DNA of 64,000 nucleotides from Panicum virgatum (Eukaryota; Streptophyta; Magnoliopsida; Poales; Poaceae): assembly GCF_016808335.1 (NCBI RefSeq), contig NC_053145.1, positions 24,144,258 through 24,208,257 on the forward strand. Direction: 5' to 3'. Position numbers and translations under genes: made by a program. This document shows positions 29,553 to 51,042 of this stretch, piece by piece. Below the pieces are notes generated by a model. The model was given only the letters and a program-made list of their open reading frames with translations, made no database searches and was not told the DNA's origin. Positions within the stretch are counted from its first letter, which is position 1, and the number at the start of each line of letters is the position of its first letter.

Positions 29553-29913
29553 TGTGGCGGAACCACCCAAAACTACTGGGCCCGGGTGCACTGATCTTCG
29601 TTGCTAAGCAACTCTGACCCAATTTGGCACTCACCGGTAGTTCCTCGAGTGAAGCCTCGATAAAAGCCACGCTATTCCAGGATCAGCAGACAACACTCAC
29701 ACGAAGGTGAGCCCAGAGATTACAACACAAACCATTTCATACATCTCAGAGTGATTGCAGCGGAAAGGAAAATTTATTACAAACCATGTTCAGACTAGTG
29801 AAGTACTAAGGAGTTCCAACTCCTCAAATTATTCAAGTCTCAAAGTTCAGCGGAAGCATTAAAAGATAACTAACGAAATAACGTGACGCATCGGTAAAGC
29901 CCGTACGAATGCG

Positions 29914-32860
29914 TCACTCAGCGGGAGGGTGATTAGCACTAGCTGAAGGGCCATCCCACTCAACCGACCAACCCGGAGGCAGAGTACAAGGCCAAGTAAG
30001 ACTCGCAAACAGATCTTCAAAGTTAGTACCTGAAAAACAGTGCCACAAGCAAGGCTGAGTATACTAATACTCAGCAAGACTGACCCGTCTCCGGATATAA
30101 CATAGTCCGATAACTATACATGCAAGCTTTTTGGTTGGAGAGGTTTGTTTGCCAAAAATGCCGCTAAGTGTTGATCCTTACTTTCAGGTTTTACTTAGCC
30201 AGATTCTAGTGGAATCAACCATTCTAAGTTTGCAACTAACTCTACTCAAACATGGTAGAGCAACCATTTAATCAACCAGCAGTATTATCATCATCCTGTT
30301 CCACTTGTTACTCTATGTGACCGAAATCATTAAGCAATCTCATGCCGTGAGAGGCGGACGATTCCGAATCGAATTTCAACCTGGCCAGGGGAACCTAGAC
30401 CACACGCATGGGGATTGACTTCGCTCCCGCCCACGCTACTTTTCCCCTTTCTTTCCAGTCCGTGGATCCGGCACACCCTCCCCGACTACAGAGTCCGACC
30501 ACTCTGCACCCGTACGTCGCGACATAAAATAAACCCTACTTCTACCAGGAGGGTGCGAGATCGTTCCACTCGCCGGTCCAATCAGGTACTTAAGCTTACC
30601 GATTACCATATTTCTCGGTATGTGGCTAGTACTTTCAAACGCTTAACAAAATGAGCCACACACCTCGACCTTAGCCATTTTTGACTATACCAGCGGGGTA
30701 TCACAACTACACAACCCCGCCCGTTGTCCTTACATTTCAACAGGAAATAAAGTCAGTACAATTCCTATTGCTCGCGAGAGGCAGAGAACCACTCGACTTC
30801 TACCGTGCCTATTTAGCATGGCAACTAGTCGATAAAAAGTTCCGGTATCAAACATAGGTTCCTATGGATCATGCATCTAGGGTTCTCGATCAACGCCTAG
30901 AGAACTTATATGCAGAAAACCAACTATTACCATACATTAGTAAATAGATAACAGAATGGTAATTCGGAAAAATAGTGGGATTATGCTCCGGGGCTTGCCT
31001 TCTTGGGCACTGTCAGGCAGAAAAACTTCGGGGGCTTGGCCCAGGTCTTGAGACAAGTTAGTACAGTTCAGATTAATCTCCTGCTCCGCACGAGAGTCCG
31101 CGGGCACCAGTTCGTAGTCTCCGTCCGCGAGATTAACCGTTTCTATATGCAATGCAAGATTATGAGTTATTCATGGATAACAATTTCTTTCCTTCACGAT
31201 AAAGTTGTAGTCCACGTAAGTTAATTTAGTGCCGATTTCATATTTCATTGCATGGGCAATCGTTTATAGAGTAGTAAGCATAACTATGGTTATTCATGAA
31301 TGAGTGGGGTTTTAGGTTTTCATTTTTAATTTCAACACATAACATGCTTTCATTATTTCTTAACATCACAACTACTAAAGAGCTAGTGATGAACACTAAA
31401 GTAACTCAGATTCAAAATAAGTAATTATGGTATAGATTTCAGCATTTAACCATAAAGCAAAAACTATAACTAATCATGCAAATGGATTACTCTAGTTACT
31501 TCATATTTTTGTACAGAATGTTCCACATGGATTCTGATGCTACAAATTTTATGCAAGCAACTTCAAAGCATACACTCAGTACTGAAATTTTTCCAGATTT
31601 TATACACTTATATAGCAGAGGTGATAAAAAGATTAAAAACGGCAAGCCATTAACAAAGATTAAATCTACAGAAAGTTTTACTAAGGATTTGGTTCTCAAA
31701 TTTTTACCAGAGACTAGTACTGAGTTAAACATACTCCAGAAAATTTTTCAAGATTTAACTCACTATACTAAATTAGTTATTCAGTTAACTTAACATGAGT
31801 TTGCATAATTTTCTCAAGATGTATTTGACCAGCATTGCATCTGAACTTTTTATCAAGGGTAGAACATACTCTAAGCAAGATCATGCCCAAAAATAAAGAT
31901 CAGAAACATTGTAGATTTCTCAGAACAAAAAATAGTAACCCTAACCATAAGATGCTAAGCATGATTATTCGACAAATCCAAACTCAGTAAATGCAGCTCA
32001 AAATTTTTATATAGGGACACAGAGCTAAAAAGAGACTCCAGAAATAAATATGGATTTTTCCGAGCATAACAACTATATATGAGGAATTAAGTTGATTAAA
32101 CAAGCATAAATCATGGTATATAGCAAATGAACTCTAATAAATTTGAAATTTAGAGACTTACAGGGATTCAGTGGCACAAGACTGTAGTAAAATTTTCAGA
32201 GCAAGTTCATGTACATATTTTCCAGAATTAAATCGAGAGTGCTAACAACAGATTAGAGAATCTTGATTGTTCTAACCTGATAACTGTTTTGGTTTGATGT
32301 CATCTTTTTACTGTGATCTTAGCATCCCATTAGTTATAACATATCCAAAAATCAATGTCATTTGATGAGCAGAACTTCATGAACATGCATAAGGTGATTT
32401 TCTTAATCTTTTCCCTAGATTAAATTCGGTTGAGTTTCTGCAAATGTGAATGTTACAAAATTTGTAGATTTTGTTACAAGGATTCCAGATCAGTTGAGTT
32501 TGCATTTTTCTGATTTTTCTGTGATTTGTTTCGCATTTTAGAAGTTCACTGGTATACACTGTAAAACTTGCAGAGACACCCTTGAACGAAAAAAAGAAAT
32601 TACAACCGGGTCCTTCGCCGGCCTTCTCCGCCGTGGCATCTTGCCGGTGGTGTTCTGCGGTGCAGGGCTTACCGGGGCTGCCACGGGGAGGCGCGTGGGG
32701 GAGAAAGGATCGAGGAACACCTACCCTGGTCGACGTTCGAGCGATTGGAGCACAGGTTCAAGCTCGTCGGCGTTGATGGCGGGTCGGTTGTTCGGTTCGC
32801 CGGCGCTGGAGGCGAAGGAGGGCTTGGGGTAGGGGAACAAGGCGCGCACGAGCACCGCAT
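29914..32860 (-). CDS. LTR-encoded spliced ORF (element B, 3' LTR), about 131 aa
   Basis: Predicted exons on the minus strand: exon 1 32860-32725 (ATG at 32860; donor CCAGG|GTAGGT), exon a 31142-30999 (acceptor CATATAG, GC donor AAG|GCAAGC), exon b 30029-29914 (acceptor TTTTTCAG, stop TGA). Introns are 1582 and 969 nt, both phase 1, and the frame stays open throughout. Exon a contains LADGDYELVP; exon b contains FEDLFASLTWPCTLPPGWSVEWD. The element C homologue has LSDGTYELIP and FEDQIASLTYPCSLPPGWSVEWD, with many third-position changes between them, the pattern of a conserved protein. A TATA box lies upstream at 33161. Short ATG frames precede the proposed start, so the start is the weakest part. 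No known domain; function unknown. Confidence 0.6.
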
Positions 32861-33160
32861 GAGCTCGTGGATGCTTCTGGGGTAGCTATCGGGCTCGGTC
32901 TTCCCCGGAGCTGGCCGGTCCGCGGTGAGCCCGAGCTCGCCGGCGGCGGCGCAAAAGGGGAACGGCGTCGGGAGGGGGTTTGGGTTCGATTCTGCGCGCG
33001 TGGAGCGTAACTGGGAGGTGGCGAAGCTGTTGCGGTGGTCAGAGGGGGCAATGTGGGGCTGGGCTAGCCGGTCCGCGCGAGCTGGATCTCGGCGGCCATG
33101 GCGGAGCGGCGGGAGGAGGAAGAAGGGGAGAAGGGGCGCGACTGCGGGGGTTCTGGGGGT

Positions 33161-33168
33161 CTTTATAG
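33161..33168 (-). promoter_or_regulatory. TATA box of element B LTR (left copy)
   Basis: The minus strand reads GGCCTATAAAGACCCCC, a good plant TATA context, between a GC-rich U3 and the candidate exon 1. The identical box in the right, 5' LTR at 45048-45055 would start the genomic transcript. Confidence 0.65.
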
Positions 33169-33937
33169 GCCACAGAGCTCCTGGGTGAGGAAAGGAGTGA
33201 CTGGGGGCGGTCGATTCGGCCTGGGCGAGTCGACGGCGAGCGGGCGGAGGAGGCAGCGGCGCGGCGCATGGCTGGGGGCGTCGTGGCGGCTCGGGAGCGG
33301 CCTGGGACACGTGTGGGCGTGGGAGGGCGCCAAGGGGCAGGCCAGGTGGCGCTAAACGGTTTCCCCGGGTCCATTTGGTCGCGGGCGCGCGGTGGACGAG
33401 GTCCACCGGCGGCGTACGGCGGGCGGCGGGAAAACAGAGCACCGGGAGAGAGAGAGATGGAGATGGGGGCTCTTTTGTGATTTCTGAAATTTCCAGGGAC
33501 CTCTCGGTAAACTAAAATTTTCTCCTAATTAGAGGGCTCAAATGGAAAAGTGTTGAATACCATTTTTGCATAACTTTTCAAGATCTACAACTTTTGTGTT
33601 ATGCAAATTTTCATTTGAAAATCACATTTTGAACTATTGGCACATTTGCATATTTGCACAAAAGGACTTTAGTTTTATTCAGTTTTTGACTTGATTTTGG
33701 CTGAAGTTCAATTGAGCACATGTCAATTGAAACACCTCTCATGAGCCAACAAAAATTTTGTGCACATTTTTGAATTAAATTTTGAGTAGCTTTTCACTCC
33801 TTTTTCTTTTCCTTTAATTTCTTTTGTATGATTTGTCTTTTATTTGATCCTTTCTCTTTAAATTAATTTCTCAAATTTTTCTTTTAACTTTAACTAAGGT
33901 ACATTGATTGGATTTAAAGGTGCTAACACCTGAGGTG

Positions 33938-36900
33938 TCACAACCTACCCCCCCTTAACAAGAATCTCGTCCCGAGATTGGATGATTGAATTTGAGGTGG
34001 GGAAAATGATATACCTGAGGTAGAGCTAAGGAAACCCGGATAGTGTCGATTAAGATAATCCTCCGTCTCCCAAGTGGCTTCTTCTTCAGTGTGATGAGAC
34101 CACTGAATTTTATACATTTTTACCACCTTTCGACGAGTACCTCTCTCTTTTTGATCCAGAATTCTGAGTGGATATTCGGTATATGAGAGATCGGGCTCCA
34201 CTAAAATTTCCTGTTGATCAATGATTTCCGTAGGAACTCGAACACATTTCTTGAGTTGGGATATGTGGAAAACATTATGGATGGCGGCAAGTCGTGAAGG
34301 AAGTCGCAAACGATAAGCCACGGGTCCACATTCTTCAATGATTTCATATGGCCCGACATAGCGAGGTGCGAGCTTACCCCTAACTCCGAAACGTTGAACG
34401 CCTCGAGTTGGAGACACTCGTAAATAGACGTGGTTACCAACCATGAATTTCAAAGGATCCCTTCTTTTATCGAAATAACTCTTTTGCCGGGACTGAGCTG
34501 CTCGGAGATTAGCTTGTACTATTTTGACTTTCTCCTCAGCCTCGACAACTAATTCGGGTCCAAATATTTGACGTTCCCCAGTCTGAGACCAATTCAAAGG
34601 AGTTCGACACCGTCGACCATACAAGGCCTCGAAGGGTGCCATCTTCAGACTGGCCTGATAGCTGTTGTTATAAGAAAACTCCGCCAAGGATAAACATTTG
34701 TCCCAGTTCTTGTCATAATGGATGACACATGCTCGAAGCATATCTTCAAGAATTTGATTAACCCTTTCGGTCTGCCCGTCAGTCTGTGGATGGTAAGCTG
34801 AGCTTCGAATTAATTTAGTTCCGAGAGCCTCTTGGAGTTGCTCCCAAAACCTTGCCACAAACTGAGGACCACGATCCGATATAATTGTTTTGGGTATACC
34901 GTGTAGGCAGACAATTCGATCAATATAGATCTCAGCATATTTCTTGGCTCGATATTCAGTATGCACTGGAATAAAATGAGCAGTCTTTGTGAGCCTATCA
35001 ACAATGACCCAAATGGAATCATGGTGCTGAAAAGTATTTGGTAAGCCCACGATGAAATCCATGCTGATATCTTCCCATTTCCAAGACGGAATTGGTAGAG
35101 GTTGGAGAGCTCCAGCAACTTTCAAGTGACTAGCCTTCACTCTCTGACAGGTGTCACATTCTGAGACATATTTGGCAATCTCTCTCTTCATGCGAGTCCA
35201 CCAAAAATTTTGTCTGAGATCTTGGTACATCTTGGTGCTACCCGGATGAATAGAAAATTTAGAGAGATGTGCTTCGTCTAGGATTTGTTTCCGCAAATCA
35301 GTATTTTTGGGAACGACTAGGCGATCCTCGAACCACAAAATTCCTTTATGGTCCACTCGAAAACACTTATATTTATTTTCACCTTCTACTACTTGCTGCT
35401 TGATGATACCAACACTTTTGTCGTGTAATTGTGCCATGATGACCTGGTCATAGAGTGTCGGTTCCACCGAAATATGATTCAAAGAGCCCTGAGGAATAAT
35501 TTCTAATTTCAGCCTTTGCATTTCAGCACACAATGTGTCATTATATGACTCCATTGAAAGGCAATTGCAGTGAACCTTGCGACTGAGCGCATCGGCTACC
35601 ACATTTGCCTTGCCCGGATGATAATGAACCTCCAGATCATAATCTTTGATTAATTCCAGCCATCTTCGTTGCCTCATATTCAGCTCACTTTGAGTGAAAA
35701 TGTATTTGAGACTCTTATGGTCGGTATAGATATTGCAATGGGTGCCCATAAGATAATGTCTCCAAAGCTTGAGAGCATGAATAACGGCGGCTAGTTCCAG
35801 ATCATGAGTGGGATAATTTAGCTCGTGTGGTCGAAGAGCTCGGGAAGCATAAGCTATCACCCGATTGTCTTGCATTAGAACACAACCAAGACCAGTGCCT
35901 GAAGCATCACAATAAACGTCGTATGGTTTATTGTTGTCAGGTTGAGCCAAGACTGGTGCAGTGGTTAGATGTGCTCTCAATGTATGGAATGCTTCATCAC
36001 ACTTTGTGTTCCATTTAAACCTGACATCTTTTCTTAGTAGTTCTGTCATGGGCTTAGCAATTCTGGAGAAGTCCGGAATAAATCTGCGGTAATACCCCGC
36101 CAAGCCGAGAAAACTGCGGATCTGATGAACTGAAGTAGGAGGTTTCCAGTCCATCACTTCTTGTACTTTGCTGGGATCAACTGAAATGCCTTCACTAGAT
36201 ATAGTGTGACCCAAAAATTTGACTGTGTCCAGCCAGAATTCACACTTGGAGAATTTTGCGTACAGCTTATGATCTCTGAGACGTTGAAGAACAATGCGCA
36301 GATGTTGCTCATGTTCCGCCTCATCTTTGGAATAGATCAGAATGTCGTCAATAAAAACAACGACAAACTTGTCAAGTTCCGGCATAAATACCGAGTTCAT
36401 GAGATACATAAAATAAGCCGGAGCATTGGTGAGACCGAAAGACATAACCAAGTACTCATAGAGACCATATCGGGTTGAGAAGGCGGTCTTGGGAATATCA
36501 CAAGGCCGGATTTTAATTTGATGATACCCCGAACGGAGATCAATCTTGGAGAAGATCTTTGCCCCAGCCAACTGATCAAACAGTACATCAATGCGGGGAA
36601 GTGGATATTTATTTTTGATGGTCACCGCATTGAGAGGCCGGTAGTCAACACACAACCTCAGACTGTCATCCTTCTTCTTTACGAACAGTGCTGGGCAACC
36701 CCATGGTGAAGCACTTGGGCGAATAAAACCCTTGTCCAGAAGTTCTTGCAGCTGGATTTTTAATTCGGCTAATTCTTTGGGCGGCATTCGATACGGCCTT
36801 TTTGAAATAGGGGCTGTACCAGGCTGAAGTTCAATGATAAATTCGATATCCCGGTCTGGCGGCATACCAGGTAAATCATCCGGAAACACATCTGCATATT

Positions 36901-38479
36901 CACGGACTACCGGAATATCTTCGAGACGAGTATCTTTCATGGCATAGGCACAAGAGTTCTTGCATTGGTGATGAGGTAAATATAGAACCGAATGACCATG
37001 AGTTGGAGAATTTATTTCGACAGCTCGGGAAGAGATATCTAACATTACCCCATGTCTGTTCATCCAATCCATTCCCAGAATAATGTCCATACCTTCTAGT
37101 GGCAGCAATATTAAAGTGGTAGGGACAGTTTTACTACCCAAACTTAGTGGCGCATTATTAACGATTTGGTTTGATGCAACTTTGCCACCCGGAGTAGATA
37201 TCATGAATGACCCTTTTGTGTGGCAAAAATCTAACCCAACCCTTGCTCCGAATTTAGAACTAATGAAGCTATGAGATGCACCAGAATCGAATAAAATGAC
37301 TGCGGGGTGATGGTTTATAGAGAATGTACCCGACATGATTGGTGCTCCCTCAGGTAGTTCAGCAAGGTTGGTGAAGTTAAGTCGGCCCTGCCTGACTTGG
37401 ATGGTTTGCCTCTTGCCCTTGTTCTGATCGTTTCTGCGAGGAGCCTGCCCTTGAGATTGTCCCGCCTGGGGGCACATCTTGGCAAAGTGATCCGGACTCC
37501 CGCATCTGAAACAGCGGTTATTATTATCGGGGCGAGCGGCTGGCTGGGCATTCGGCCTAGGGCCGTTCTGCTGCTGTTGAGGTGCAAATCGAGCTTGCTG
37601 GGGAAGCCCGAATCGAGTCTGCTGCTGCTGTTGAGGAGGCCTAATAATCCAACGCCCTGGCTGAGGGGCCTTCTGAGAGAGTGCGGGTGGGCTATTTTGC
37701 ACAATACGATACCTCGGTGCAGAGGCACTCGAGGGTCCAGCAGGTGCCTTGCGCTTCTTTTCAGCGCGGTGTGCAGAAATAAGATCATCCTGAGATATAG
37801 CCATATTCACCAATTCATTGAAGGAGTCCGCACGGACAAGATTTAGCCTTTCTTGTAACTTGGTACTGAGGCCTCGACGGAAGCGTTCACGCTTCTTAGC
37901 GTCGGTGTCCGCGTGATGTCCAGCATATTGACACAATTGATGGAATACTTGGGCATACTGCACCACAGTACGAGTGCCCTGAGTCAAGGCCAAGAACTCG
38001 TTGAGCTTACGGTCAAGAAGTCCGGCTGGAATATGATGATCTCGAAAAGCCAGTTTGAATTCATTCCAATTCACCACATGATCAGCCGGTAGCATCCCGT
38101 GGTAATGATCCCACCACATACGAGCTGATCCGCGAAGCTGCTGCGCGGCATAGCGAGTTTTGTTCGCTTCGGAACAAGGAGTAGTCAATAGAGAAAACTT
38201 GGACTCGATCGTGCGAATCCAAGCGTCAGCGTCCAGAGGCTCATCCGCTTTATTGAACAGCGGAGGCTGAGTGCTGAGGAAATCTTGGTAGCTCGCCTCT
38301 TGTGCGTGATGAGCATGATGCCCACCCCGCGGTTGTTGCTGAGCTTGAACCAACTGCCGCAAAATCTTTGTCTGGGCAGCAAGAACCTCAGCAATACCCA
38401 CTGGTGGAGGAGGTGGAGGTGAATCGCCATTCCCTCCGGCTCCAAAACCACTAGGGGTGCCTCGAGTTGATCCAACCAT
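33938..38479 (-). CDS. Gag-Pol polyprotein, element B, intact
   Basis: One open frame of 1513 codons from an ATG that directly follows ...CACATTTCAG. Gag residues 1-360, zinc knuckle C323-X2-C326-X4-H331-X4-C336; protease DSGAS at 399-403; reverse transcriptase about 550-760 with FIDD at 709-712; RNase H about 850-970 with D858, E895, D920 and D963; integrase about 1060-1300 with H1071, H1078, C1108, C1111 and the D1141-D1202-E1238 triad; GPY/F-like segment near 1375; chromodomain about 1435-1484 ([16 protein letters not shown]). All catalytic residues I can check are present. The TGA stop at 33938-33940 is made of bases 3-5 of the 3' LTR. Chromodomains of this type direct integration to heterochromatin. 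Most likely a functional Tekay/Del-clade polyprotein. Confidence 0.93.
33943..33979 (-). other. Polypurine tract and hairpin, element B
   Basis: The minus strand reads TTAAGGGGGGGTAGGT immediately before the 3' LTR, and upstream of it the inverted repeat AATCTC-GGGAC-GAGATT (33963-33979). Both lie inside the 3' end of the gag-pol frame. Confidence 0.8.
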
Positions 38480-39138
38480 CTGAAATGTGAGTACTTTTGC
38501 ATTAGGTTCATCATTATCATCATTTCAAATGGAATATACAACTCAACATGACATGGAGATACTGGAAATTGCTTAATAAGGTTGTGCAGCAAAACTAGCG
38601 ATACGAAAACGCTCATAACTGGAGTTCGGTATATGATATAAACTTGAAATTTTTACAGGAGATAGATAATTTCATGATCTACAACTTTGGTAGTCATCAC
38701 AAAGTCAGATTTCCAGAGTAGGTTAGTCGAAAAATTCCATTACTCCTCCTCTGTTTTTTTTTTCTGCTTCACAGAAAACAGAGCTTCTGTAAATTGCGAT
38801 TATCTCCTGCAATACCAATCCGTTTGGGCTGAAATTTTGCGAGTAGGTTCCTGATGAAATTTGGAACAACTTTGGTATTCAACTCAGGAGCTAAATCCGA
38901 AAGGAAAAGAGGATAAAAATTCGAACTAGCTGCTGCCTTCAGCTTTTTTGCAGATCACTTATAATTAACACTAGTAGCATTAGGGGTTCATTACATCCAT
39001 CGTTCTCTCATTTCTACTTGGTCACTCCTAACATCAGTACTAAGGGGGTTACTCAACTCTAAGTTAGCCTAGTAGCCATGATCCAAAAGTAGGCCACACT
39101 AAGAGGAGTCTACAAAAGCTAAGAAACAGCGCCTCGGT
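38480..39138 (-). other. Spacer between accessory ORF and gag, element B
   Basis: About 660 bp, AT-rich, with no supported reading frame. It ends on the minus strand in TACTCACATTTCAG before the gag ATG, so it is best read as the tail of an intron or as untranslated spacer. Confidence 0.5.
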
Positions 39139-40038
39139 CTACATGTTGACCGATGCCTCACTCGCCGCGGGAGTGTGAACCTCAACCGGTGCGGGCTGCG
39201 GCGCCTGGTCCTCGAAGTCCATCTCTGAAAAGCCCTCGATCTCCTGGGGCTCGTCCTCCTCGTCCACCTGCATCTCGTCGGGAGGTGCGTGAAGGGCATC
39301 CTGCGCGTGCTGTATCGCGTGGAGCTGCCCCTGAGCCTCGTCCACCTCAAGCTGCAGGTCGTGAAACTGGTCCTCCAGGAAGTTGATCGTAGCGTCACGA
39401 TCCGACACAGTGTCCTGAAGCTCGTGAACCTGGCCGTGGAGCTGGGCGATAAGAGTAGCCCTACTCTCGAGCTCGGTACTAGCCTCCTGAAGCTGCCCAT
39501 CTCTCAGCTGGACTGCCAGGTGCAAGGCCTGAGCGTGGTCCACCAACTGAGCGACGGCGTAACTCTGGTAAGTGTGAAGCCTGTAGAGGCCGTCCAAGCA
39601 CATCGCTGTCGTCCGAAGTGCCCCGACCGGGTCAAGGGTAGCGACCACGTCCACGTGTGCCATCCGGTCGAGCCAAAGCGGGTCTGCCGGGTCAGGTGCA
39701 GGGAACAACCCGAACGCGGTCAGAACCACCTCCAGAGGGTGCGAAGAGCAAAAGGTGGTCATCGCCCTCATGGCGGTAAGCTCCCAGGTGTCCAGCAGAT
39801 AGTGACCGACCATCTGAGTCACGATCGGCTCCCACCCGTTGAGCGGGTGCTGCGGGATCACCATCGTCACACTGCAGCGACGAACTCCGTCCTCAACAAA
39901 CTCGTGGCCATCGTAAACCGGTGGCTGGAGGTAACCGGCTGCACTCAAAAGCTCCCAAAGACGGCGGGGAAACCCGTCCCAGTGCAGGCAGGCGGAGTGC
40001 ACGTGCCCCTGCGCGTCAACGACCAGCAGCTCTTCCAT
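39139..40038 (-). CDS. Accessory ORF (aORF) upstream of gag, element B, 299 aa
   Basis: The ATG at 40038 (MEELLVVDAQGHVH) directly follows ...TTGTTGGGACAG, an acceptor-like site; the in-frame codon at 40050 is TTG and is not preferred. Residues 1 to about 150 form an unrecognised domain with LHWDGFPRRLWELL, VTMVIPQHPL and TAMRAMTTFCSSHP. Residues about 165-245 show heptad spacing (ESRATLIAQLHGQVHELQDT), a likely coiled coil. The acidic tail contains DEEDEPQEIEGFSEMDFE. Element C carries a broken homologue in the same place with the same three-part layout. It is in sense orientation, unlike some known extra ORFs. Function unknown; it resembles uncharacterised grass retroelement proteins. RNA or protein binding through the coiled coil is only a guess. 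Confidence 0.8.
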   Translation of the reverse strand: MEELLVVDAQGHVHSACLHWDGFPRRLWELLSAAGYLQPPVYDGHEFVEDGVRRCSVTMVIPQHPLNGWEPIVTQMVGHYLLDTWELTAMRAMTTFCSSHPLEVVLTAFGLFPAPDPADPLWLDRMAHVDVVATLDPVGALRTTAMCLDGLYRLHTYQSYAVAQLVDHAQALHLAVQLRDGQLQEASTELESRATLIAQLHGQVHELQDTVSDRDATINFLEDQFHDLQLEVDEAQGQLHAIQHAQDALHAPPDEMQVDEEDEPQEIEGFSEMDFEDQAPQPAPVEVHTPAASEASVNM

Positions 40039-41423
40039 CTGTCCCAACAAAAGACCGATAGATCAGCTGATGGTAACAAGAACTACTAACTCTGGAACAG
40101 TGAAAGAAATGGCCAAAACTGTAGAGAACTTGCTTCAAAAATTCTCAAAAATTTACACAAGATCCCTCTGATATTAAGGAACAATTCACCTAGTCATCAC
40201 TAAGCTCAATTCGGATTCCATGGGGGTGATATGCTCAGGTATTCAGAGTGATGTCAACCAGGAAAACTGAGTGTCCAGAGAGGGTGTATTTTGACTATAA
40301 CTCTCAACCCAGACGTCAAAAATTTTTCAAATTTTTATGGTAAGCTCATCACTTAGTTGTCTACAACTTTCATGTTGAACGATTTTTAGTTTGAACAACT
40401 TATAATGGTCGAAAAATTTCGTCTGTATAGACTGTTCAGAGTTAACAGTTTTACACAGGGTTGATCCAAAAATACAAATACCATGCTAGAAGACTTCAAA
40501 AATTCTCAAATTTTTACAGCAGCTTGATAACTTAGGAAACATCATTTAGTCTTACTACCCCAAGTCGATTTGAGTAACTTATCAGAAGGTAAAAATTCGT
40601 GGAAACCAGGTGGCAGACTTTCTGGATACTCCCTAGGATAGTGTTTTAACTGATTTGCTTGCGATTTCCCCAGAGATTTATTTGCTAATCTTTTTGAGAA
40701 TGAATGCAGAACCTATACGTCCTCACCAAGGAAAAAATCGCCAAGTAATCTTGGTCTTACGCAATGACTTTGGTGGCATACATATTACGTCTCTCACTAT
40801 ATAGCTACTCGATATAGCTAGATAGCCTGTAATTCGATTTCAAGTTAGCGTACCTGCAGAAGATTGACAGCATATAAAATGAACCTCTCGTGCCAGCACT
40901 CACGAAAGCGTCCCCATACATTACCGATCATTATAGAATCGGCATCCATACTATTACCGCCGTATGGACAACGTTAAGCATACGTTATCGAAACAACGTA
41001 TTGACTGAGTACCGTCTTTGACGGGGAATTGAATTCCAATTTCGAACCATTACTCCCCATATACTCAACCGAAGTTGGTATATGGGCAGCAGCTCAAGTA
41101 GGCCACTGCTTGAGCTTCAGCGTTCGGCTCGCATCACCGACGGGAAGGTCAGACTCCCTCAGCTGACTGAGTAAGCATACCTTCGTAGCGACGATGTAGT
41201 TGCAGAATTTAAATTGCGGAATTTAAATACTGAAAAGTAATGTGCTGGAAGTTAGCCATACAAAATAAGCTACCTGATTATACCCATAAGATCCCCTAGG
41301 GCTTTACGTCCTAGACTTGTCCTTGGAGATCCTAAACTCTTTCAAAAACATTAGTAGTTTTGAAGTCAAGTTTTGATTTATTGTTTTGAAAACCGAGGCT
41401 GTCATCTCTGGTAGGCTGTCTGC
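40039..41423 (-). other. 5' leader of element B with conserved splice donor
   Basis: About 1.4 kb from primer-binding site to aORF. At 40854/40853 the minus strand reads TCTGCAG|GTACGCTAAC, a strong donor also present in element C (TATGCAG|GTACACTAAC). Acceptors directly before the aORF and gag ATGs would give introns of 815 and about 2374 nt. Two hairpins shared with element C lie at 41056-41116. No ORF of note. Confidence 0.55.
41056..41116 (-). ncRNA. Pair of conserved leader hairpins, element B
   Basis: Hairpin 1 (41056-41086, 31 nt) has a stem CCCATATAC/GTATATGGG with an inner CAAC/GTTG stem. Hairpin 2 (41091-41116) has a stem AGCTCAAG/CTTGAGCT. Element C has hairpins in the same order with a changed but still paired stem, CCAATATA/TATATTGG (51526-51556, also 31 nt). 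The position after the primer-binding site fits packaging or dimerisation signals; the role is inferred. Confidence 0.45.
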
Positions 41424-41437
41424 GAGCTCTGATGCCA
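41424..41437 (-). other. Primer-binding site, initiator tRNA-Met type, element B
   Basis: The minus strand reads TGGCATCAGAGCTC next to the 5' LTR, differing by one base from the common TGGTATCAGAGC. Confidence 0.8.
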
Positions 41438-41439
41438 GC

Positions 41440-44400
41440 TGTGGCGGAACCACCCAAAACTACTGGGCCCGGGTGCACTGATCTTCGTTGCTAAGCAACT
41501 CTGACCCAATTTGGCACTCACCGGTAGTTCCTCGAGTGAAGCCTCGATAAAAGCCACGCTATTCCAGGATCAGCAGACAACACTCACACGAAGGTGAGCC
41601 CAGAGATTACAACACAAACCATTTCATACATCTCAGAGTGATTGCAGCGGAAAGGAAAATTTATTACAAACCATGTTCAGACTAGTGAAGTACTAAGGAG
41701 TTCCAACTCCTCAAATTATTCAAGTCTCAAAGTTCAGCGGAAGCATTAAAAGATAACTAACGAAATAACGTGACGCATCGGTAAAGCCCGTACGAATGCG
41801 TCACTCAGCGGGAGGGTGATTAGCACTAGCTGAAGGGCCATCCCACTCAACCGACCAACCCGGAGGCAGAGTACAAGGCCAAGTAAGACTCGCAAACAGA
41901 TCTTCAAAGTTAGTACCTGAAAAACAGTGCCACAAGCAAGGCTGAGTATACTAATACTCAGCAAGACTGACCCGTCTCCGGATATAACATAGTCCGATAA
42001 CTATACATGCAAGCTTTTTGGTTGGAGAGGTTTGTTTGCCAAAAATGCCGCTAAGTGTTGATCCTTACTTTCAGGTTTTACTTAGCCAGATTCTAGTGGA
42101 ATCAACCATTCTAAGTTTGCAACTAACTCTACTCAAACATGGTAGAGCAACCATTTAATCAACCAGCAGTATTATCATCATCCTGTTCCACTTGTTACTC
42201 TATGTGACCGAAATCATTAAGCAATCTCATGCCGTGAGAGGCGGACGATTCCGAATCGAATTTCAACCTGGCCAGGGGAACCTAGACCACACGCATGGGG
42301 ATTGACTTCGCTCCCGCCCACGCTACTTTTCCCCTTTCTTTCCAGTCCGTGGATCCGGCACACCCTCCCCGACTACAGAGTCCGACCACTCTGCACCCGT
42401 ACGTCGCGACATAAAATAAACCCTACTTCTACCAGGAGGGTGCGAGATCGTTCCACTCGCCGGTCCAATCAGGTACTTAAGCTTACCGATTACCATATTT
42501 CTCGGTATGTGGCTAGTACTTTCAAACGCTTAACAAAATGAGACACACACCTCGACCTTAGCCATTTTTGACTATACCAGCGGGGTATCACAACTACACA
42601 ACCCCGCCCGTTGTCCTTACATTTCAACAGGAAATAAAGTCAGTACAATTCCTATTGCTCGCGAGAGGCAGAGAACCACTCGACTTCTACCGTGCCTATT
42701 TAGCATGGCAACTAGTCGATAAAAAGTTCCGGTATCAAACATAGGTTCCTATGGATCATGCATCTAGGGTTCTCGATCAACGCCTAGAGAACTTATATGC
42801 AGAAAACCAACTATTACCATACATTAGTAAATAGATAACAGAATGGTAATTCGGAAAAATAGTGGGATTATGCTCCGGGGCTTGCCTTCTTGGGCACTGT
42901 CAGGCAGAAAAACTTCGGGGGCTTGGCCCAGGTCTTGAGACAAGTTAGTACAGTTCAGATTAATCTCCTGCTCCGCACGAGAGTCCGCGGGCACCAGTTC
43001 GTAGTCTCCGTCCGCGAGATTAACCGTTTCTATATGCAATGCAAGATTATGAGTTATTCATGGATAACAATTTCTTTCCTTCACGATAAAGTTGTAGTCC
43101 ACGTAAGTTAATTTAGTGCCGATTTCACATTTCATTGCATGGGCAATCGTTTATAGAGTAGTAAGCATAACTATGGTTATTCATGAATGAGTGGGGTTTT
43201 AGGTTTTCATTTTTAATTTCAACACATAACATGCTTTCATTATTTCTTAACATCACAACTACTAAAGAGCTAGTGATGAACACTAAAGTAACTCAGATTC
43301 AAAATAAGTAATTATGGTATAGATTTCAGCATTTAACCATAAAGCAAAAACTATAACTAATCATGCAAATGGATTACTCTAGTTACTTCATATTTTTGTA
43401 CAGAATGTTCCACATGGATTCTGATGCTACAAATTTTATGCAAGCAACTTCAAAGCATACACTCAGTACTGAAATTTTTCCAGATTTTATACACTTATAT
43501 AGCAGAGGTGATAAAAAGATTAAAAACGGCAAGCCATTAACAAAGATTAAATCTACAGAAAGTTTTACTAAGGATTTGGTTCTCAAATTTTTACCAGAGA
43601 CTAGTACTGAGTTAAACATACTCCAGAAAATTTTTCAAGATTTAACCCACTATACTAAATTAGTTATTCAGTTAACTTAACATGAGTTTGCATAATTTTC
43701 TCAAGATGTATTTGACCAGCATTGCATCTGAACTTTTTATCAAGGGTAGAACATACTCTAAGCAAGATCATGCCCAAAAATAAAGATCAGAAACATTGTA
43801 GATTTCTCAGAACAAAAAATAGTAACCCTAACCATAAGATGCTAAGCATGATTATTCGACAAAGCCAAACTCAGTAAATGCAGCTCAAAATTTTTATATA
43901 GGGACACAGAGCTAAAAAGAGACTCTAGAAATAAATATGGATTTTTCCGAGCAAAACAACTATATATGAGGAATTAAGTTGATTAAACAATCATAAATCA
44001 TGGTATATAGCAAATGAACTCTAATAAATTTGAAATTTAGAGACTTACAGGGATTCAGTGGCACAAGACTGTAGTAAAATTTTCAGAGCAAGTTCATGTA
44101 CATATTTTCCAGAATTAAATCGAGAGTGCTAACAACAGATTAGAGAATCTTGATTGTTCTAACCTGATAACTGTTTTGGTTTGATGTCATATTTTTACTG
44201 TGATCTTAGCATCCCATTAGTTATAACATATCCAAAAATCAATGTCATTTGATGAGCAGAACTTCATGAACATGCATAAGGTGATTTTCTTAATCTTTTC
44301 CCTAGATTAAATTCGGTTGAGTTTCTGCAAATGTGAATGTTTCAAAATTTGTAGATTTTGTTACAAGGATTCCAGATCAGTTGAGTTTGCATTTTTCTGA

Positions 44401-45830
44401 TTTTTCTGTGATTTGTTTCGCATTTTAGAAGTTCACTGGTATACACTGTAAAACTTGCAGAGACACCCTTGAACGAAAAAAAGAAATTACAACCGGGTCC
44501 TTCGCCGGCCTTCTCCGCCGTGGCATCTTGCCGGTGGTGTTCTGCGGTGCAGGGCTTACCGGGGCTGCCACGGGGAGGCGCGTGGGGGAGAAAGGATCGA
44601 GGAACACCTACCCTGGTCGACGTTCGAGCGATTGGAGCACAGGTTCAAGCTCGTCGGCGTTGATGGCGGGTCGGTTGTTCGGTTCGCCGGCGCTGGAGGC
44701 GAAGGAGGGCTTGGGGTAGGGGAACAAGGCGCGCACGAGCACCGCATGAGCTCGTGGATGCTTCTGGGGTAGCTATCGGGCTCGGTCTTCCCCGGAGCTG
44801 GCCGGTCCGCGGTGAGCCCGAGCTCGCCGGCGGCGGCGCAAAAGGGGAACGGCGTCGGGAGGGGGTTTGGGTTCGATTCTGCGCGCGTGGAGCGTAACTG
44901 GGAGGTGGCGAAGCTGTTGCGGTGGTCAGAGGGGGCAATGTGGGGCTGGGCTAGCCGGTCCGCGCGAGCTGGATCTCGGCGGCCATGGCGGAGCGGCGGG
45001 AGGAGGAAGAAGGGGAGAAGGGGCGCGACTGCGGGGGTTCTGGGGGTCTTTATAGGCCACAGAGCTCCTGGGTGAGGAAAGGAGTGACTGGGGGCGGTCG
45101 ATTCGGCCTGGGCGAGTCGACGGCGAGCGGGCGGAGGAGGCAGCGGCGCGGCGCATGGCTGGGGGCGTCGTGGCGGCTCGGGAGCGGCCTGGGACGCGTG
45201 TGGGCGTGGGAGGGCGCCAAGGGGCAGGCCAGGTGGCGCTAAACGGTTTCCCCGGGTCCATTTGGCCGCGGGCGCGCGGTGGACGAGGTCCACCGGCGGC
45301 GTACGGCGGGCGGCGGGAAAACAGAGCACCGGGAGAGAGAGAGATGGAGATGGGGGCTCTTTTGTGATTTCTGAAATTTCCAGGGACCTCTCGGTAAACT
45401 AAAATTTTCTCCTAATTAGAGGGCTCAAATGGAAAAGTGTTGAATACCATTTTTGCATAACTTTTCAAGATCTACAACTTTTGTGTTATGCAAATTTTCA
45501 TTTGAAAATCACATTTTGAACTATTGGCATATTTGCATATTTGCACAAAAGGACTTTAGTTTTATTCAGTTTTTGACTTGATTTTGGCTGAAGTTCAATT
45601 GAGCACATGTCAATTGAAACACCTCTCATGAGCCAACAAAAATTTTGTGCACATTTTTGAATTAAATTTTGAGTAGCTTTTCACTCCTTTTTCTTTTTCC
45701 TTTAATTTCTTTTGTATGATTTGTCTTTTATTTGATCCTTTCTCTTTAAATTAATTTCTCAAATTTTTCTTTTAACTTTAACTAAGGTACATTGATTGGA
45801 TTTAAAGGTGCTAACACCTGAGGTGTCACA
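41440..45830 (-). repeat. Element B 5' LTR (right), 4391 bp
   Basis: Nearly identical to the left LTR. TATA box at 45048-45055. As the upstream LTR it would drive the genomic RNA leftward. Confidence 0.92.
41801..44747 (-). CDS. LTR-encoded spliced ORF (element B, 5' LTR)
   Basis: Same predicted gene as in the left LTR, shifted by 11887: exon 1 44747-44612, exon a 43029-42886, exon b 41916-41801. All boundaries, phases and the GC donor are intact. Because this copy lies downstream of the promoter that starts the genomic RNA, it would form the first coding part of that transcript, before the primer-binding site, aORF and gag. Confidence 0.58.
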
Positions 45831-47179
45831 GCGGTTGCCATCTCTTTGTCAGAGTCCGCCTTGATCCTCTTGAGCTTTTCAATCTCATCTATGTTTCAGT
45901 ACATAAGAATCTTTAGATCCAGTACTAAGCTTTCCTCAATCATCAACGATTTAGTGAGGGCTGTGTACTCGATTAAAAGCGAAACTCTTATAAATACCAG
46001 ATGAATCAAACTAGTCGACTTCAATTTAGAAAGCAAAGACTAACCTCACTTAGCATTGGAGATCTTCTTTTTTTTCTCTTGGAAGTAGCGTTCTCAGACG
46101 TGAGCTTGTTCACCTACTCCCTCAGAGCGAGTAGCTCCGAGTCGTCCCGGGGATGGTTGCTCCCCTGCTCCAACAACTCCTGCCAAAGTGTAAAAGCAAA
46201 AATTTAGTATCTACTACTCGATCAAACAAAACAAAAGTACTCGAATTGTTCGATTACTTACTGCTAAGAGCTTGTGCGCAAGCTTCAACTTTTTTTCCTA
46301 TGGTAGGGCATTCCCGGTTAAGCAAGGGAAGTACTCGCCCTCACCACAGGGCCCGCCTCTATACGCGGTGCCCCTTCAATTTTCTCCACAGTATCCCCTT
46401 GATTTTGGGAATCTAGAGAAAAATTTGGGATACAAAAACCAATAAAACGAGAACAAAAATCGGAGAAAAGGCATAACAAGCTTACTTGTGGGGGTCTCCT
46501 TGGGGCACTTCTTGCCTCTTCCTTCCTCTGGGAGCTTTTCGCTCCCCTGCTCAGCATTTGGAGTTGGTGAATCGCGCAGCATGGAACTCACCATTTCCTC
46601 CACCTCACGAGCATCCACATCAGGAGTGCTCGAGGGCTTCTGCGCTAATGGTTTGGGGGCTGAAGTAACTTCAGTTGTCCCCCTAGCCTCCAAGAGCGCA
46701 TCGCTGAGAATCCACATTAGAGTTAAAATGTACTCGACACAAAGATAAAAATCTACAAACAAGTACTAAGAAACTTACGCAGATGCTCTTACTACGGAGA
46801 GCTTTTTTATGGCAAACTTGGGGAGCGGCTTATTGATTAGAGCACCGTCCCCGGTGTTTCCAGCATCACTAATATTGGAACTACTCGCCGGCGCAGATTT
46901 CTGCGGCAGAGTAGTCCTCGTCCCCTTTGACGAGTCTGCTGGGGTGGAAGGGACCTTGGTTCCCACCACAACATCATCCCTAGATGCTGTAGACCGTGGC
47001 ATCTTAGCCGCCGGACTTGAAAAGCAAAATACAGATTATGAAAGCAAATCGACAAACTTCAACAAAGTACTCAATTGCAACAAACTAGCCACCTACCTGT
47101 CGGTAGTTGTCTGCGCGGAGCTGTGACGCTTCCGCGCTACCAATCGGGTACCCTTCGGGTGATCCGCCCGGGTATCACC
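45831..47179 (-). pseudogene. PF04195 gene, middle exons
   Basis: Several exons with plausible splice sites lie here on the minus strand: 47179-47097 (exon 2, left half), 47015-46779, 46703-46486, 46412-46262, from 46179 leftward, and 45888-45836 (start of the coiled-coil exon). Exon text is low-complexity and Ser/Pro/Glu-rich (VSSMLRDSPTPNAEQGSEK). The exon at 46412-46262 has an in-frame TAA and the exon from 46179 an in-frame TAG. Element C cuts exon 2 on the right and element B cuts the coiled-coil exon on the left. Exon borders are by eye. Confidence 0.55.
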
Positions 47180-50100
47180 TGTGACACCCTAGGTGTCTGC
47201 ACATTAGTGTTGCATACCTTTTATACATCATGTGCTTGTTTTGCTTGAAAAAGGACCTTTTTGTAATTATAAAAGGTTATATGTGTAATTATGATTTTAT
47301 GCAAGGTCCTTTCTGCAGTTATATTTGAATTGGGTGTGCAATTATAGCTTTTGTGGAGGGTGCTTTTGCAAAATGTGGTGTAATCATTACATGGCAGAAA
47401 ACTTTTCAAATCAGCCCAAGATTGGAGTGAAATTTCATTGAAAAAGACAAATTCCTTTGAATTCAAATTCCTTTCTTTGTTTTCAAAATTAGCTCTCTAT
47501 ACTTTGGTCAAATAAATTTTTGCACAACATCAAAGTTGTAGATCTTGAAAAGTTGAACAACTTTCATGTTGAGCACTTTTTCATTTGAGCTTTAGTTTAA
47601 AAGTTATTGCTTATTTACAGTTTGGTCCCTGAAATTTTCAGAAATTGCAAACCAGCCCTTTTTCTTCTTCCTCCATCCCTCTCCTCTGTTTTTCTCTGCC
47701 GCCGCCGCAGAGCCTGTCGCCGGCGCCGTGGAGAGCCCGCCCGGCCGCCCTTTGCTCTGCGCTGGCGCCCACGCGTCGCCCCAGAGCTTCTCCACCGCCC
47801 TTGGCTGCGCGCTGGAGCCTCCCCTGCAGTGCCACGCCGCCCAGTGCCGCCGCATGGCCGCCACCGCGACGCCGCCGTGGAGCGCCCCCTGCAGAGGCCG
47901 CCGCCCTTCCCTAGCGCGCGCACAGGCACTACTTAAACCCCAGAGTCCTATTCCTCATGCCCTTTTGCTCTCTCCTCGTTCCCACGCCACAGAACGCCGC
48001 CGCCGTCACCCACAGAACCCCGGCGAGCTCACCTCGCTGCGGAGCCGCCTCACCGCCGCTCCTCCGCCCGCTCTGACCCCCTAGCAAGCACCGCTTCGCC
48101 CTCGCGCAACTCCCAGGCCACATCCCCACGCCCGAACCCCACCGGAGCCACCCCGCCGCCGTGCTCCGAGCCCGCAAGCCGCCGCTCGCCGTCGAACCGC
48201 CATCTCCGGCCCTCCTCTCGAGCTCCAAAGCCACCCAGAGGTGCGCCTTGGTTTCCTTAACCACCCACGCCCCTCCACTCTCGCCGCCGGCGCTCACCAT
48301 CGCCGGATTTGACCGGCCATCCTCCCTCTGATCTTTTCCCCATGGCCGAGGACCCCGTGCTAGAATTTGAGAAACCCCAGGGGGTTTTCTGAGTAGTCAG
48401 TGACACATTTGAATAGTGCTATAGGGACTTGTTTGTAATAGTTTGCTGCAAACTTTGAAATTCTATATCAATTCATAGGAAATTCGTAAAATAGAAAATA
48501 TTGATGTTTTGGAATCCTCTTGATGAGCTCTATGCAGTAGAACCATAATATGTTAGGCTTTAGTTGCAAGTTTTTGCTGAAAAATTTGATTTGTGTTACT
48601 AGCGCATATATATTAGTTGTTTTTATCTTTTTCTTAGCTACTGTTTGAAAGATTGTCTTGCTCTGAAACTTTTATGGTGGTTTGCTATTATAACACTAGT
48701 ATTGATATAAATATTTCATGGTCAGTTCTCTGTTGTAGCTATTTATTTGATTTAATCCTTGTTTAGTAGACTTTATTTATGGTAAATAGTTTCTGTTCGT
48801 AATAAATCATGAAAATATTTATGCATGTTCTTCTTGAGTAGTTTAGCTTGTCCAGGAAGTTTGAGCCTCAGTTCATGAATAGAACAGGAGCTAAAAATGA
48901 ATCTTGCTAATCTGTTGTTCTGTTTTGTTTATTTTATCATAATTATTTGTATGTAGATAAAATCATGAAAATTTCACAGTAGCTAGATAATTTCTGTGTA
49001 GATCTCCTATTAAATTTTGAGCTTCTGATTTGTTCTAGTTTGACCTGTATAATTCAAGTTTGTTCTATGTGCTGTCTGAATGATTGATTTGTTCTGATTA
49101 AATGGTTAGATGTTATGGCATGATTTTTACAGGCTAGATTACTTTGTTCATGTTCTGTTTTGTGAAATTTTGGCAGAATTTATTACTGGTTATGATCTGA
49201 GTGTTTAATTTATTGGCAAACCATGTTTTGTTTGTTATAGAAAACCACCCCCACTTGTTTATGGAGTAGTCAACATCATTTGTGCTGTTGATCATGATGC
49301 CTTGTGTAGTTAGGTTTGTTAGTTAACTACTCTATAAACGCTTGCCCATGTGTGTTTTTAATGTTGTTCTTGCATTACATATAGACACGACTGCCTTATC
49401 GGACGGGACGTACGAGCTGATCCCGGAGTCTGACGGAGGTGATCTCGAAGCTCAAGCAAACGCCGCTGAACTAACTGAAGCCCCGAACCAGAGTTCGGAA
49501 GAGCCTAGAGCTGAAATAGTTAGCAACTACCGAGAAGGCAAGCCCCGGACATAACCTATATTTCAAATTATTACCATTTACTGTTATTACTTGCTTATGC
49601 ATTTATAGTTCTTAGGATTTGAATTGAAACCCTAGATGCATGATCCTAGGAACCTATGTACTGAAAACTAGACTTGAGTTCGACTACTTGCTAAGCTTAT
49701 AGGACCGGTAAAAGTCGAGTGATTGCCTGTCACTCGCGAGCTTTATAGGAATTACTTGTTTACTTTCTGTTATCAATATAAGGACGACGGACGGGGTCGT
49801 GTTCGATATCATGACCTTTGGTGAGACCCCGTCTGTATTGATGAACTTGCTAAGGTCGCGGTGTGTGGTAGCGGTGGTTAAGTTTTTGAAAGTACTAGCC
49901 ACATGCCGTAAATATGGTACGCGGCAAGCCTAGTAGCCGATTGGACTGGGGAGTGGATATACCTGACACTCTCTCTTAGGGATATGTTTTATTTTTATGT
50001 TGCGCAACACTGCGACTTCAAGGGACAAGGGTGGACCTCGTAGAAGGGTGGACCTTGGAGCCCTGTAGTCGGGGAGAGTGTTCCTATCCACAAGCTGGAA

Positions 50101-51028
50101 AGAAAGGTCAATGGTTGTTTGGGAACGACCCGACGGTGTTCCAGACGTGTGTGCTAGGTTTATCCTTGCAAGGTTGAATTTCGATTCAGAATCGTCCGCC
50201 TCTCACGATGATATGAGATTGCTTGATCCCTTTGCCACACAGAGTAATAAGAGCAACATTACTATGATTAAACTTGATGTTTGCTTAAATTTCTACCATG
50301 ATTGTTTAGTAGTTGCTTACATAGAATGGTTAATCAACTAGAATCTTGAAAGCTAAAACTTGAAAGTAAGGACCTACTCTTTATTGCTTTTCAAGAAATT
50401 GGAGTGGCATGGATCCAACTGACCCAAAAGGAAAACCAGAGCCTCACAAACCTTGCATAGTCTAGCTATAGTGGGCTACTTAGACCCGTTGACGGTTAAG
50501 TCTTGCTGAGTATTAGAATACTCAGCCTTGCTGTTGAACTTTCTATCAGGTATGAGTTTTGAGGATCAGATCGCTAGCTTGACCTACCCTTGCTCGTTGC
50601 CTCCTGGCTGGTCCGTAGAGTGGGATACGTCTGCGACCGGCAATGACTATGACGAGTGATACCATGCTTGGGCTAGCCTGGTGTCCTTTTGCGACGTATT
50701 GTAGCCGTCGTGTTTTTTCTTCCGCTGTTTTAAACTCTGAACTTTTCATTATGGCTTGTATAACTGTTTACTAAGGTTGGTCTTGTAATAATACTTTAGA
50801 ACTGGCTTGTAATAACTTTTATGCCTGTGATGTAAAAATTGTGGTTGTAATATCTCTGGACTCGTCTTCGTGCGGGATATGCTTGTTCGATCCAAAAACC
50901 GGTGGTTGTATCGGGACGTTACCCGACAGACCAAGGATTGTTCCGTTTGAAATGCGTTTGAGCCGGTGTTGCCTTTATGGTGATGGCCTGCGCACTTGAG
51001 CCGGGATAATTCAGGTGGTTCTGCCACA
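47180..51028 (+). repeat. Element C 5' LTR, 3849 bp
   Basis: Bounded by TGTGACACCCTAGG and GGTTCTGCCACA. A TATA-like CTACTTAAAC lies near 47930, followed by GC-rich candidate exon 1 to the donor at 48240 (CAGAG|GTGCGC). Its frame in phase with exon a is stop-free from 47937 but lacks an ATG. Confidence 0.9.
49385..50659 (+). CDS. LTR-encoded ORF, exons a and b (element C 5' LTR)
   Basis: Exon a 49385-49537 follows TACATATAG and ends CGAGAAG|GCAAGC, a GC donor. Exon b 50550-50659 follows TTTCTATCAG and ends with TGA. Intron 1012 nt, phase 1, frame open across the junction. Exon a has ALSDGTYELIPESDGG and an acidic Ala/Glu-rich middle; exon b has FEDQIASLTYPCSLPPGWSVEWD. It is homologous to the element B peptide. 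Downstream sequence is T-rich with TTGTAATAA-like motifs, as in plant 3' ends. Start codon not identified. Function unknown. Confidence 0.58.
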
Positions 51029-51030
51029 GC

Positions 51031-51042
51031 TGGTATCCGAGC
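51031..51042 (+). other. Primer-binding site, initiator tRNA-Met type, element C
   Basis: TGGTATCCGAGC, two bases after the 5' LTR; one mismatch to TGGTATCAGAGC. Confidence 0.75.

Follow-up and report, generated by a model that had tools for sequence, protein, structure and literature searches.

A probable small spliced gene encoding an acidic protein within long terminal repeats of plant Ty3-type retrotransposons

Within the long terminal repeats (LTRs) of one large family of plant retrotransposons there appears to lie a small, spliced gene whose acidic protein product has been preserved by evolution. A reading frame borne within the LTRs of two related elements, B and C, is under protein-level selection and is divided between two exons, a and b. 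Both elements lie in a 64,000-nt stretch of the Panicum virgatum genome (contig NC_053145.1, 24,144,258-24,208,257), hereafter the window (Table 1). Taken as a whole, the observations are probably best explained by a small, real gene situated in what would be the R-U5 part of the LTR, from which an intron that is itself a folded RNA is removed by splicing.

Table 1. Positions of LTRs, exons, introns and associated features of elements B and C in the window
Feature	Position	Strand	Remarks
Element B 3' LTR	29553..33942	-	Recent copy, both exons open; 12 substitutions in 4390 aligned sites relative to the B 5' LTR
Element B 5' LTR	41440..45830	-	Exon a ~42886-43029, exon b ~41801-41916, both open
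Element C 5' LTR	47180..51028	+	Exons open
Element C 3' LTR	57313..61106	+	Exon a ~59518-59669 frameshifted; exon b ~60628-60737 open
Exon a, element B 3' LTR	30999..31142	-	144 nt, both ends in phase 1; 5' boundary uncertain
Exon b, element B 3' LTR	29914..30029	-	Ends in TGA; core FEDLFASLTWPCTLPPGWSVEWD
Exon a, element C 5' LTR	49385..49537	+	153 nt
Exon b, element C 5' LTR	50550..50659	+	Ends in TGA
GC-AG intron of B	30030..30998	-	969 nt, conserved, structured RNA; fold z -3.4
GC-AG intron of C	49538..50549	+	1012 nt, structured (folded minus its first 62 nt)
Hairpin GCTGAGTATTAGTATACTCAGC	30054..30075	-	24 nt before exon b; predicted 9-bp helix
AATAAA 3' of exon b stop, element B	29773..29778	-	AATAAC in element C at 50811
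Proposed exon 1 of B	32721..33137	-	Donor between 32721 and 32720, TAG/GTGTTC; 5' end guessed from TATA box
TATA box of B	33158-33168	-	By motif
Proposed exon 1 donor of C	48240..48241	+	CCAGAG/GTGCGC
Extra ORF of element B	39139..40062	-	ORF0 position, upstream of gag, outside LTR; context only
ORF0-position ORF of element C	52202-52780		Between 5' LTR and gag-pol

Elements B and C are Ty3-type LTR retrotransposons, as seen from their paired LTRs, TG..CA ends, target duplications and domain order. The LTRs are 3.8-4.4 kb long and differ little within each pair (K 0.0027 in B and 0.0255 in C), and the 5-bp target duplication is exact in C (TCACC) and imperfect in B (GCGGC/GCGGT). Each element also has PBS-like and PPT-like stretches. 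Pfam places Gag, protease, RT, RNase H and integrase in Ty3 order in the 33938-38524 ORF of element B; the coding region of element C is in several pieces, one of which was put through Pfam. For the chromodomain by which a chromovirus of the Tekay/Del-like kind would be known, matches to Chromo at the integrase C-terminus scored 21.9 and 24.8 bits, under the Pfam cut-off of 25.1.

Direct reading of the sequence bore out the positions, strands and phases that a sequence-only reading had given for exons a and b in the B and C LTRs. The peptides of the two elements align as that reading had claimed (LADGDYELVP with LSDGTYELIP; LPPGWSVEWD identical in both), and codons for identical residues differ at third positions (GAA/GAG, AGT/AGC, CCG/CCT, GGT/GGC, TCG/TCC, GTT/GTA). 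To widen the sampling, 60 more LTR copies were taken from the genome to which the window belongs, giving a 64-copy set. These loci were hand-picked on one contig from sites of a 17-nt motif of the intron, which has 3313 exact copies in the genome (reversed control, 0), so every added locus has the exact motif; most obvious LTR pairs are represented by one member, and two of the loci, L037 and L038, look identical. Exon a was matched in 54 of the 64 copies and exon b in 48. Some copies are broken, the exon b core being open in 41/48 and exon a in 37/45.

Exon b evolves as protein, and so, under weaker constraint, does exon a. Among 34 unique open copies from the own genome, omega for exon b is 0.188 (lnL -758.2 vs -798.0 at omega 1), compared with 1.52 and 1.86 in the wrong frames. 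Exon a, for which 45 copies were extracted and 34 were open and unique, gives 0.377 (lnL -1893.0 vs -1928.0 at omega 1), compared with 0.82 in wrong frame +1. These sets hold open copies only, with stops, frameshifts, unreadable donors and duplicates removed; codon columns with stops were removed from the wrong-frame tests, and the log records a kappa of 1.000. Selection on protein had been proposed from the sequence, with dN/dS near 1 named beforehand as the outcome that would tell against it; neither exon has such a value. Between subfamilies, pN/pS for exon b is 0.16-0.43 in frame and 0.93-2.54 in the other frames. The B-C pair repeats the pattern in the exon b core, where 15 of 23 mismatches are third-position changes (binomial P 0.0017), an excess matched by none of 36 overlapping ungapped 75-column segments of the intron, and pN/pS is 0.16 (bootstrap 0.06-0.32). 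For exon a the same pair gives a non-significant 0.87 (0.56-1.41), and constraint is visible only when more copies are included.

The donor after exon a reads AAG/GC, with no GT at that place. Of 54 copies, 11 could not be read at this site, and 42 of the other 43 have the GC. AG acceptors are kept in 46/48 copies before exon b and in 48/49 before exon a, counts that may favour intact sites, the copies having been found via peptides that span the acceptor residues. The a/b junction occurs, exactly where predicted and with the frame kept across it, in P0001, P0002, P0004, P0005, P0087 and P0157, six database proteins that belong to different subfamilies. Most of the 221 retrieved proteins containing exon a continue past the donor (212; 211 by script and P0264 by eye); eight depart exactly at it, five into exon b and three into other sequence that was not placed, and one (P0156) breaks before it. 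No convincing match within the window was obtained for the tails of P0076 and P0078. All eight exact departures are JGI proteins (8/28 vs 0/193 others; Fisher 2.5e-8). In the 1.13-Gb own genome, a 24-nt pattern of the intronless B junction had no match at up to three mismatches, and the corresponding C pattern matched once, at the window's own unspliced C copy, the sole member of the 64-copy set expected to match; the reach of this search is sequences close to B or C. Because the search found no junction lacking the intron among genomic sequences similar to B or C, and given the departure pattern, the JGI junction proteins are likely to derive from RNA. Together, the exact junction in six database proteins and the failure to find such a junction among B-like or C-like sequences of the own genome make a strong, if indirect, case for probable a/b splicing.

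Splicing upstream of exon a, which the sequence-only reading had also claimed, fared less evenly: the acceptor AG is conserved, but four of the five informative a/b-spliced proteins (P0001, P0004, P0005 and P0157; P0002 is ambiguous) read through it, and therefore do not show upstream splicing. A conserved donor further upstream is proposed to end a candidate exon 1. In B it aligns with CACCnAnAG/GTGCGC of other subfamilies, and AG/GT is found in 18 of 22 aligned copies. Exons a and b of B contain no in-frame AUG, exon 1 holds no start AUG common to B and C and yields no common ATG-based coding model, and 19 of 22 one-phase ORFs at the conserved exon 1 donor lack M. It is possible, if rather unlikely, that the gene instead starts at exon a, with its promoter at the 25-nt block CTACTCTATAAACGnTTGCCCATG just before that exon and an AG that is not a splice site, an arrangement compatible with a real gene. 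This block is 96% identical between B and C, and the four read-through proteins fit such a start. However, the AG persists although residues further upstream vary widely, the exon 1 donor is conserved, and B has no in-frame AUG between the last upstream stop and exon a. A repeat unit in P0003, moreover, is 153 nt, the length of C exon a, and is joined donor to acceptor. Exon a is also enlarged by in-frame repeats of 23 codons each in P0006 and P0156.

The conserved part of the predicted product comprises ~85 residues, is strongly acidic (pI ~4) and ends in FED..ASLTWPC.LPPGWSVEWD followed by a short tail. Its structure model is of low confidence (pLDDT 55). The product has no Pfam or NCBIfam match over cut-off and no relative in PDB (best E 0.26); two DNA motifs and two protein scans run against viral contigs found no relative, and plasmids gave no match. 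The sole match on a genome contig (L001, LPPGWSVEWGGQFE) was judged by eye to be a bacterial efflux-pump-like protein and was rejected as chance.

Conservation of a peptide could also reflect an upstream ORF (uORF), in which the a/b frame would be translated in the leader and, through stalling for instance, would govern how ORF0 or gag-pol is initiated, with no working protein. By position the frame would precede ORF0 and gag-pol in the leader, its conservation is highest in a short C-terminal block, and the B leader would contain 96 AUGs if transcription began at the upstream TATA box. In 108 of the 211 proteins the unspliced frame stops no more than three residues from GKx, and all 211 stop within 40; as this end lies after the donor, splicing would change the uORF. 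Stalling uORF peptides, however, are usually conserved at the very C-terminus, where the most conserved block of this product does not lie, and a uORF does not easily account for the constraint seen where exon a begins. We consider a uORF unlikely.

Comparison of copies shows that the 0.97-kb intron has a conserved RNA fold in which paired positions covary. In the B-C pair its share of identical positions (660 of 927 ungapped) matches that of the exon b core (55/78) and exceeds that of exon a (67/141). The B-C consensus fold has an energy of -170.9, compared with -111.5 (sd 7.7) for shuffles, 0/30 of which were as low; for 16 non-redundant copies the values are -131.1 and -52.1 (sd 6.0; 0/12). 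Covarying pairs number 22 of 152 in the 16-copy fold and 5-11 in shuffles, while the 23 compensatory pairs of the two-sequence fold lie within the shuffled range (mean 16, maximum 25). The hairpin GCTGAGTATTAGTATACTCAGC has a counterpart in C at 50505-50526 that differs by one base. Against Rfam the intron gave a chance match only (E 3.9). Elsewhere in the window, outside the intron, Rfam has one match. The intron's fold, like the GC donor and the conserved donor upstream, had escaped the sequence-only reading.

An intron so clearly structured and as conserved as exon b, beside an exon a that is near neutral in the B-C pair alone, could suggest that conservation here serves RNA or DNA alone, for folding, packaging or promoter activity, and that the open frame is a by-product. 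This is very unlikely in view of the position-3 pattern, an omega far under 1 only in the coding frame, and a frame kept over the junction in six proteins from several subfamilies. Also very unlikely is a captured fragment of a host gene whose selection lies in its past in the host, since, for all its introns within the LTR and normal-looking exon structure, it has none of the domain or structural matches sought above, and its spread across subfamilies with synonymous sites near saturation (pS up to 0.86) indicates that selection acted during travel with the elements.

With a small spliced gene as the preferred reading, the following working can be proposed. A transcript would begin at an LTR promoter, and removal of the GC-AG intron would join exon a to exon b, yielding the message for the acidic protein, which would most likely regulate the element's own expression or silencing. 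The RNA that retains the intron would be the genomic and Gag-Pol RNA, in which the folded intron may serve packaging, export or internal initiation. The function, argued from position, would be that of a small acidic regulator made when splicing discards an RNA element which unspliced genomic RNA retains. A bolder version, which we regard as doubtful, is that the LTR is a self-contained gene with a switch, evolved inside R-U5, in which one intron is removed to make the acidic regulator and retained as a genome mark, in a plant version of the early/late splicing scheme of retroviruses. If the gene is real, its selection would give a reason for the long LTRs of a family whose copies run into thousands. 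It would also bring in a so far unrecognised protein, one whose expression solo LTRs might in principle keep up, and would offer a concrete system for how plant retroelements apportion their RNA to translation and to packaging. The a/b frame may be present in plant gene annotation as orphan genes.

LTRs are usually regarded as regulatory only, and those of plants are normally annotated as non-coding. No description of an LTR-borne a/b gene was found in the open-licence literature. Among animal retroviruses, the MMTV superantigen is encoded in the LTR and HIV nef overlaps the 3' LTR, both as frames in U3 that are single and open within the LTR; what they have in common with the proposed a/b gene is a protein encoded within an LTR. 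The retroviral packaging signal sits downstream of the major splice donor, and the a/b intron may be analogous by position, as a structured RNA lost on splicing and kept in genomic RNA. A plant comparison is provided by BARE, a copia element. In the available part of its description, BARE has a facultative spliced RNA for Gag, separate from the packaged RNA; its intron is 104 nt, GT-AG and at the gag/pr border, whereas the a/b intron is 0.97 kb, GC-AG and within the LTR (PMC3735527). The aORFs of plant LTR retrotransposons are likewise extra element genes, of unknown function; in the portion of the source available they are placed in the internal region and, unlike the a/b gene, none is described in an LTR (PMC7264820). 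The grass family Retrosat2/RIRE3/RIRE8 is described, in the main text available, as Ty3-type, with LTRs >3 kb and an ORF0 besides the gag-pol ORF; that text treats the LTR as regulatory sequence only, does not contain 'intron' and has 'splic' only in a reference (PMC3485330). Elements B and C resemble Retrosat2 by description, having an ORF0 between the 5' LTR and gag-pol and LTRs >3 kb.

Exons a and b of the related Ty3-type elements B and C lie within the LTRs, at the positions that the sequence-only reading had assigned to them; the frame is kept over the a/b junction and a stop ends it (Table), with an AATAAA downstream of the stop in B. The donor after exon a is of the GC type (AAG|GCAAGC). 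Among LTR copies fetched from the same genome, GC occupies this site in 42 of the 43 that are readable and GT in none (11 of 54 copies were not readable). The exon b acceptor is AG in 46/48 copies and the exon a acceptor in 48/49. B and C each carry a near-perfect hairpin (GCTGAGTAT..ATACTCAGC) shortly upstream of the exon b acceptor.

Table. Coordinates of features in the window
Feature	Positions	Strand	Type or remark
Element B	29553-45830	-	Ty3-type; LTRs 4.39 kb
B exon a	30999-31142	-
B exon b	29914-30029	-
B hairpin	30054-30075	-
B 25-nt block	31251-31275	-	TATA-like core
B ORF0-like extra frame	39139-40062	-	ORF
Element C	47180-61106	+	Ty3-type; LTRs ~3.8 kb
C exon a	49385-49537	+
C exon b	50550-50659	+
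C hairpin	50505-50526	+
C 25-nt block	about 49326-49350	+	TATA-like core
C ORF0-like extra frame	52202-52780	+	ORF
Direct repeats	10672-11663; 62308-63295		89% identical
Element A LTRs	13153-16498; 23020-26373
Fragments related to A inverted repeats	1-1246
Rfam snoR71 match	9920-10026	+	49.7 bits; cut-off 40
ORF around snoR71 match	9910-10419	-

In the B–C pair, 15 of 23 differences in the exon b core fall at third positions (pN/pS 0.16); exon a is indistinguishable from neutral in this pair alone. Selection was then estimated from unique open copies among 60 own-genome copies and the four window LTRs. Exon b gives an omega of 0.188 (n = 34; log-likelihood -758.2 vs -798.0 with omega fixed at 1), the same codon model yielding 1.52 and 1.86 in the other two frames, and its pN/pS between subfamilies is 0.16-0.43 in frame vs 0.93-2.54 out of frame. 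For exon a, omega is 0.377 (n = 34, from 45 extracted; -1893.0 vs -1928.0), with 0.82 in the single control frame (+1) and between-subfamily ratios of 0.49-0.79, lower in the first 13 codons (0.32-0.75). Both exons thus evolve under protein-level constraint, which is far stronger in exon b.

Predicted proteins bear on splicing. A two-peptide search of 5.8 billion sequences gave 1258 matches and a profile search 4574, the best 120 of each being used; with a third search (39 matches), 268 distinct proteins were retrieved. Exon a is joined exactly to exon b, with no gap or insertion, in the retrieved proteins P0001, P0002, P0004, P0005, P0087 and P0157. Among the 221 with an exon a signature, reading continues past the donor in 212, as in DNA, one (P0156) breaks inside exon a before the donor, and eight depart at precisely the donor codon: five enter exon b, and three (P0076, P0078 and P0088, all JGI) continue into unplaced sequence, which could reflect use of other acceptors, chimeras or reading on into adjacent exons. 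Donor departures make up 8/28 JGI proteins vs 0/193 from other sources (Fisher 2.5e-8). Most simply, some contigs in the JGI set would derive from RNA, and living plants would splice out the GC-AG intron; we infer an RNA origin for the junction proteins. Searches of the own genome with 24-nt junction patterns (≤3 mismatches), which detect only sequences near B or C and gave no positive-control readout, returned no match for B; for C the single match was the intron-containing copy in the window itself, which alone among the 64 copies was expected to match. Separately, exon a is lengthened in P0006 and P0156 by tandemly repeated, in-frame units of 23 codons.

The intron itself is conserved as a folded RNA. 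It is 71% identical between B and C over 927 ungapped positions, similar to the exon b core (55/78) and unlike exon a (67/141), and its folds beat 20/20 dinucleotide shuffles in each copy (z -3.4 and -3.9; the first 62 nt of C were left out of its fold). Folded together as a two-sequence consensus, B and C reach -170.9 vs -111.5 (sd 7.7, 30 column shuffles), with compensatory pairs (23) not above shuffles (mean 16, maximum 25). Across 16 non-redundant copies the consensus fold is -131.1 vs -52.1 (sd 6.0, 12 shuffles), with covariation at 22 of 152 pairs vs 5-11 in shuffles. Rfam holds no credible family match for the intron.

The predicted product comprises about 85 conserved residues with a pI of 4.05; in B and C, 15-19 residues are acidic and 1-2 basic. 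A domain search gave nothing above cut-off, a PDB search no relative, and structure modelling a low-confidence model. A distant relative, P0154 (JGI, longest contig 11.8 kb), has a divergent exon b, followed by an acidic stretch and finally by a tail rich in arginine; this hints faintly at a role in the nucleus or with nucleic acids.

Exon a is preceded, at a distance of 1.1 kb (C) to 1.6 kb (B), by a conserved donor (CACCnAnAG|GTGCGC), which keeps its AG|GT in 18/22 aligned copies from several subfamilies and would end a proposed exon 1. In P0003, a repeat unit whose 153 nt exactly equal the length of C's exon a is joined donor to acceptor; this suggests that the exon a acceptor can be used. 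Pointing the other way, this acceptor is read through in four of the five a/b-spliced proteins reaching that far (P0001, P0004, P0005 and P0157), and P0002 is ambiguous there. For the 5' end, the main rival is that exon a starts at its own promoter. A 25-nt block around CTACTCTATAAACGnTTGCCCATG is 96% identical between B and C, with diverged flanking sequence. The translation start is the main gap of the gene model: no in-frame AUG occurs in B exons a and b, none is consistent in exon 1 and none is common to the copies.

In the reading favoured here, LTR transcription yields two RNA forms, of which the spliced one would encode a small acidic regulator protein, and the unspliced one, keeping the folded intron, would serve as genome and Gag-Pol message. 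The main rival to such a protein is that the a/b frame acts as a regulatory upstream ORF. The analysis establishes the exons, the selection on them, the splice sites and the intron structure; we infer translation of the frame, and the functions proposed here follow as predictions.

Within the 1.13 Gb genome, the window belongs to contig C10. The LTR pair of B has 12 differences over 4390 aligned sites and that of C 95 over 3794 sites; gag-pol is a single open frame in B and in pieces in C. Both elements have an extra ORF between 5' LTR and gag; these ORF0-like frames are alike by eye, and that of B has weak, sub-cut-off matches to coiled-coil families. The direct repeats are possibly LTRs of an older element hosting nested others, the LTRs of element A and their surroundings contain large inverted repeats (~87% over 1.3 kb), and the snoR71 match lies inside an opposite-strand ORF.

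Full-text searches of open-licence literature found no description of LTR-encoded ORFs of this kind or of the peptide strings. In the parts examined, neither the Retrosat2 paper (PMC3485330) nor an aORF review (PMC7264820) places a gene within an LTR. Two passages of PMC5408686 apply 'LTR-encoded' to ordinary retrotransposon proteins. BARE is spliced, according to the available part of PMC3735527, at another place, whereas the intron of B and C lies inside the LTR.
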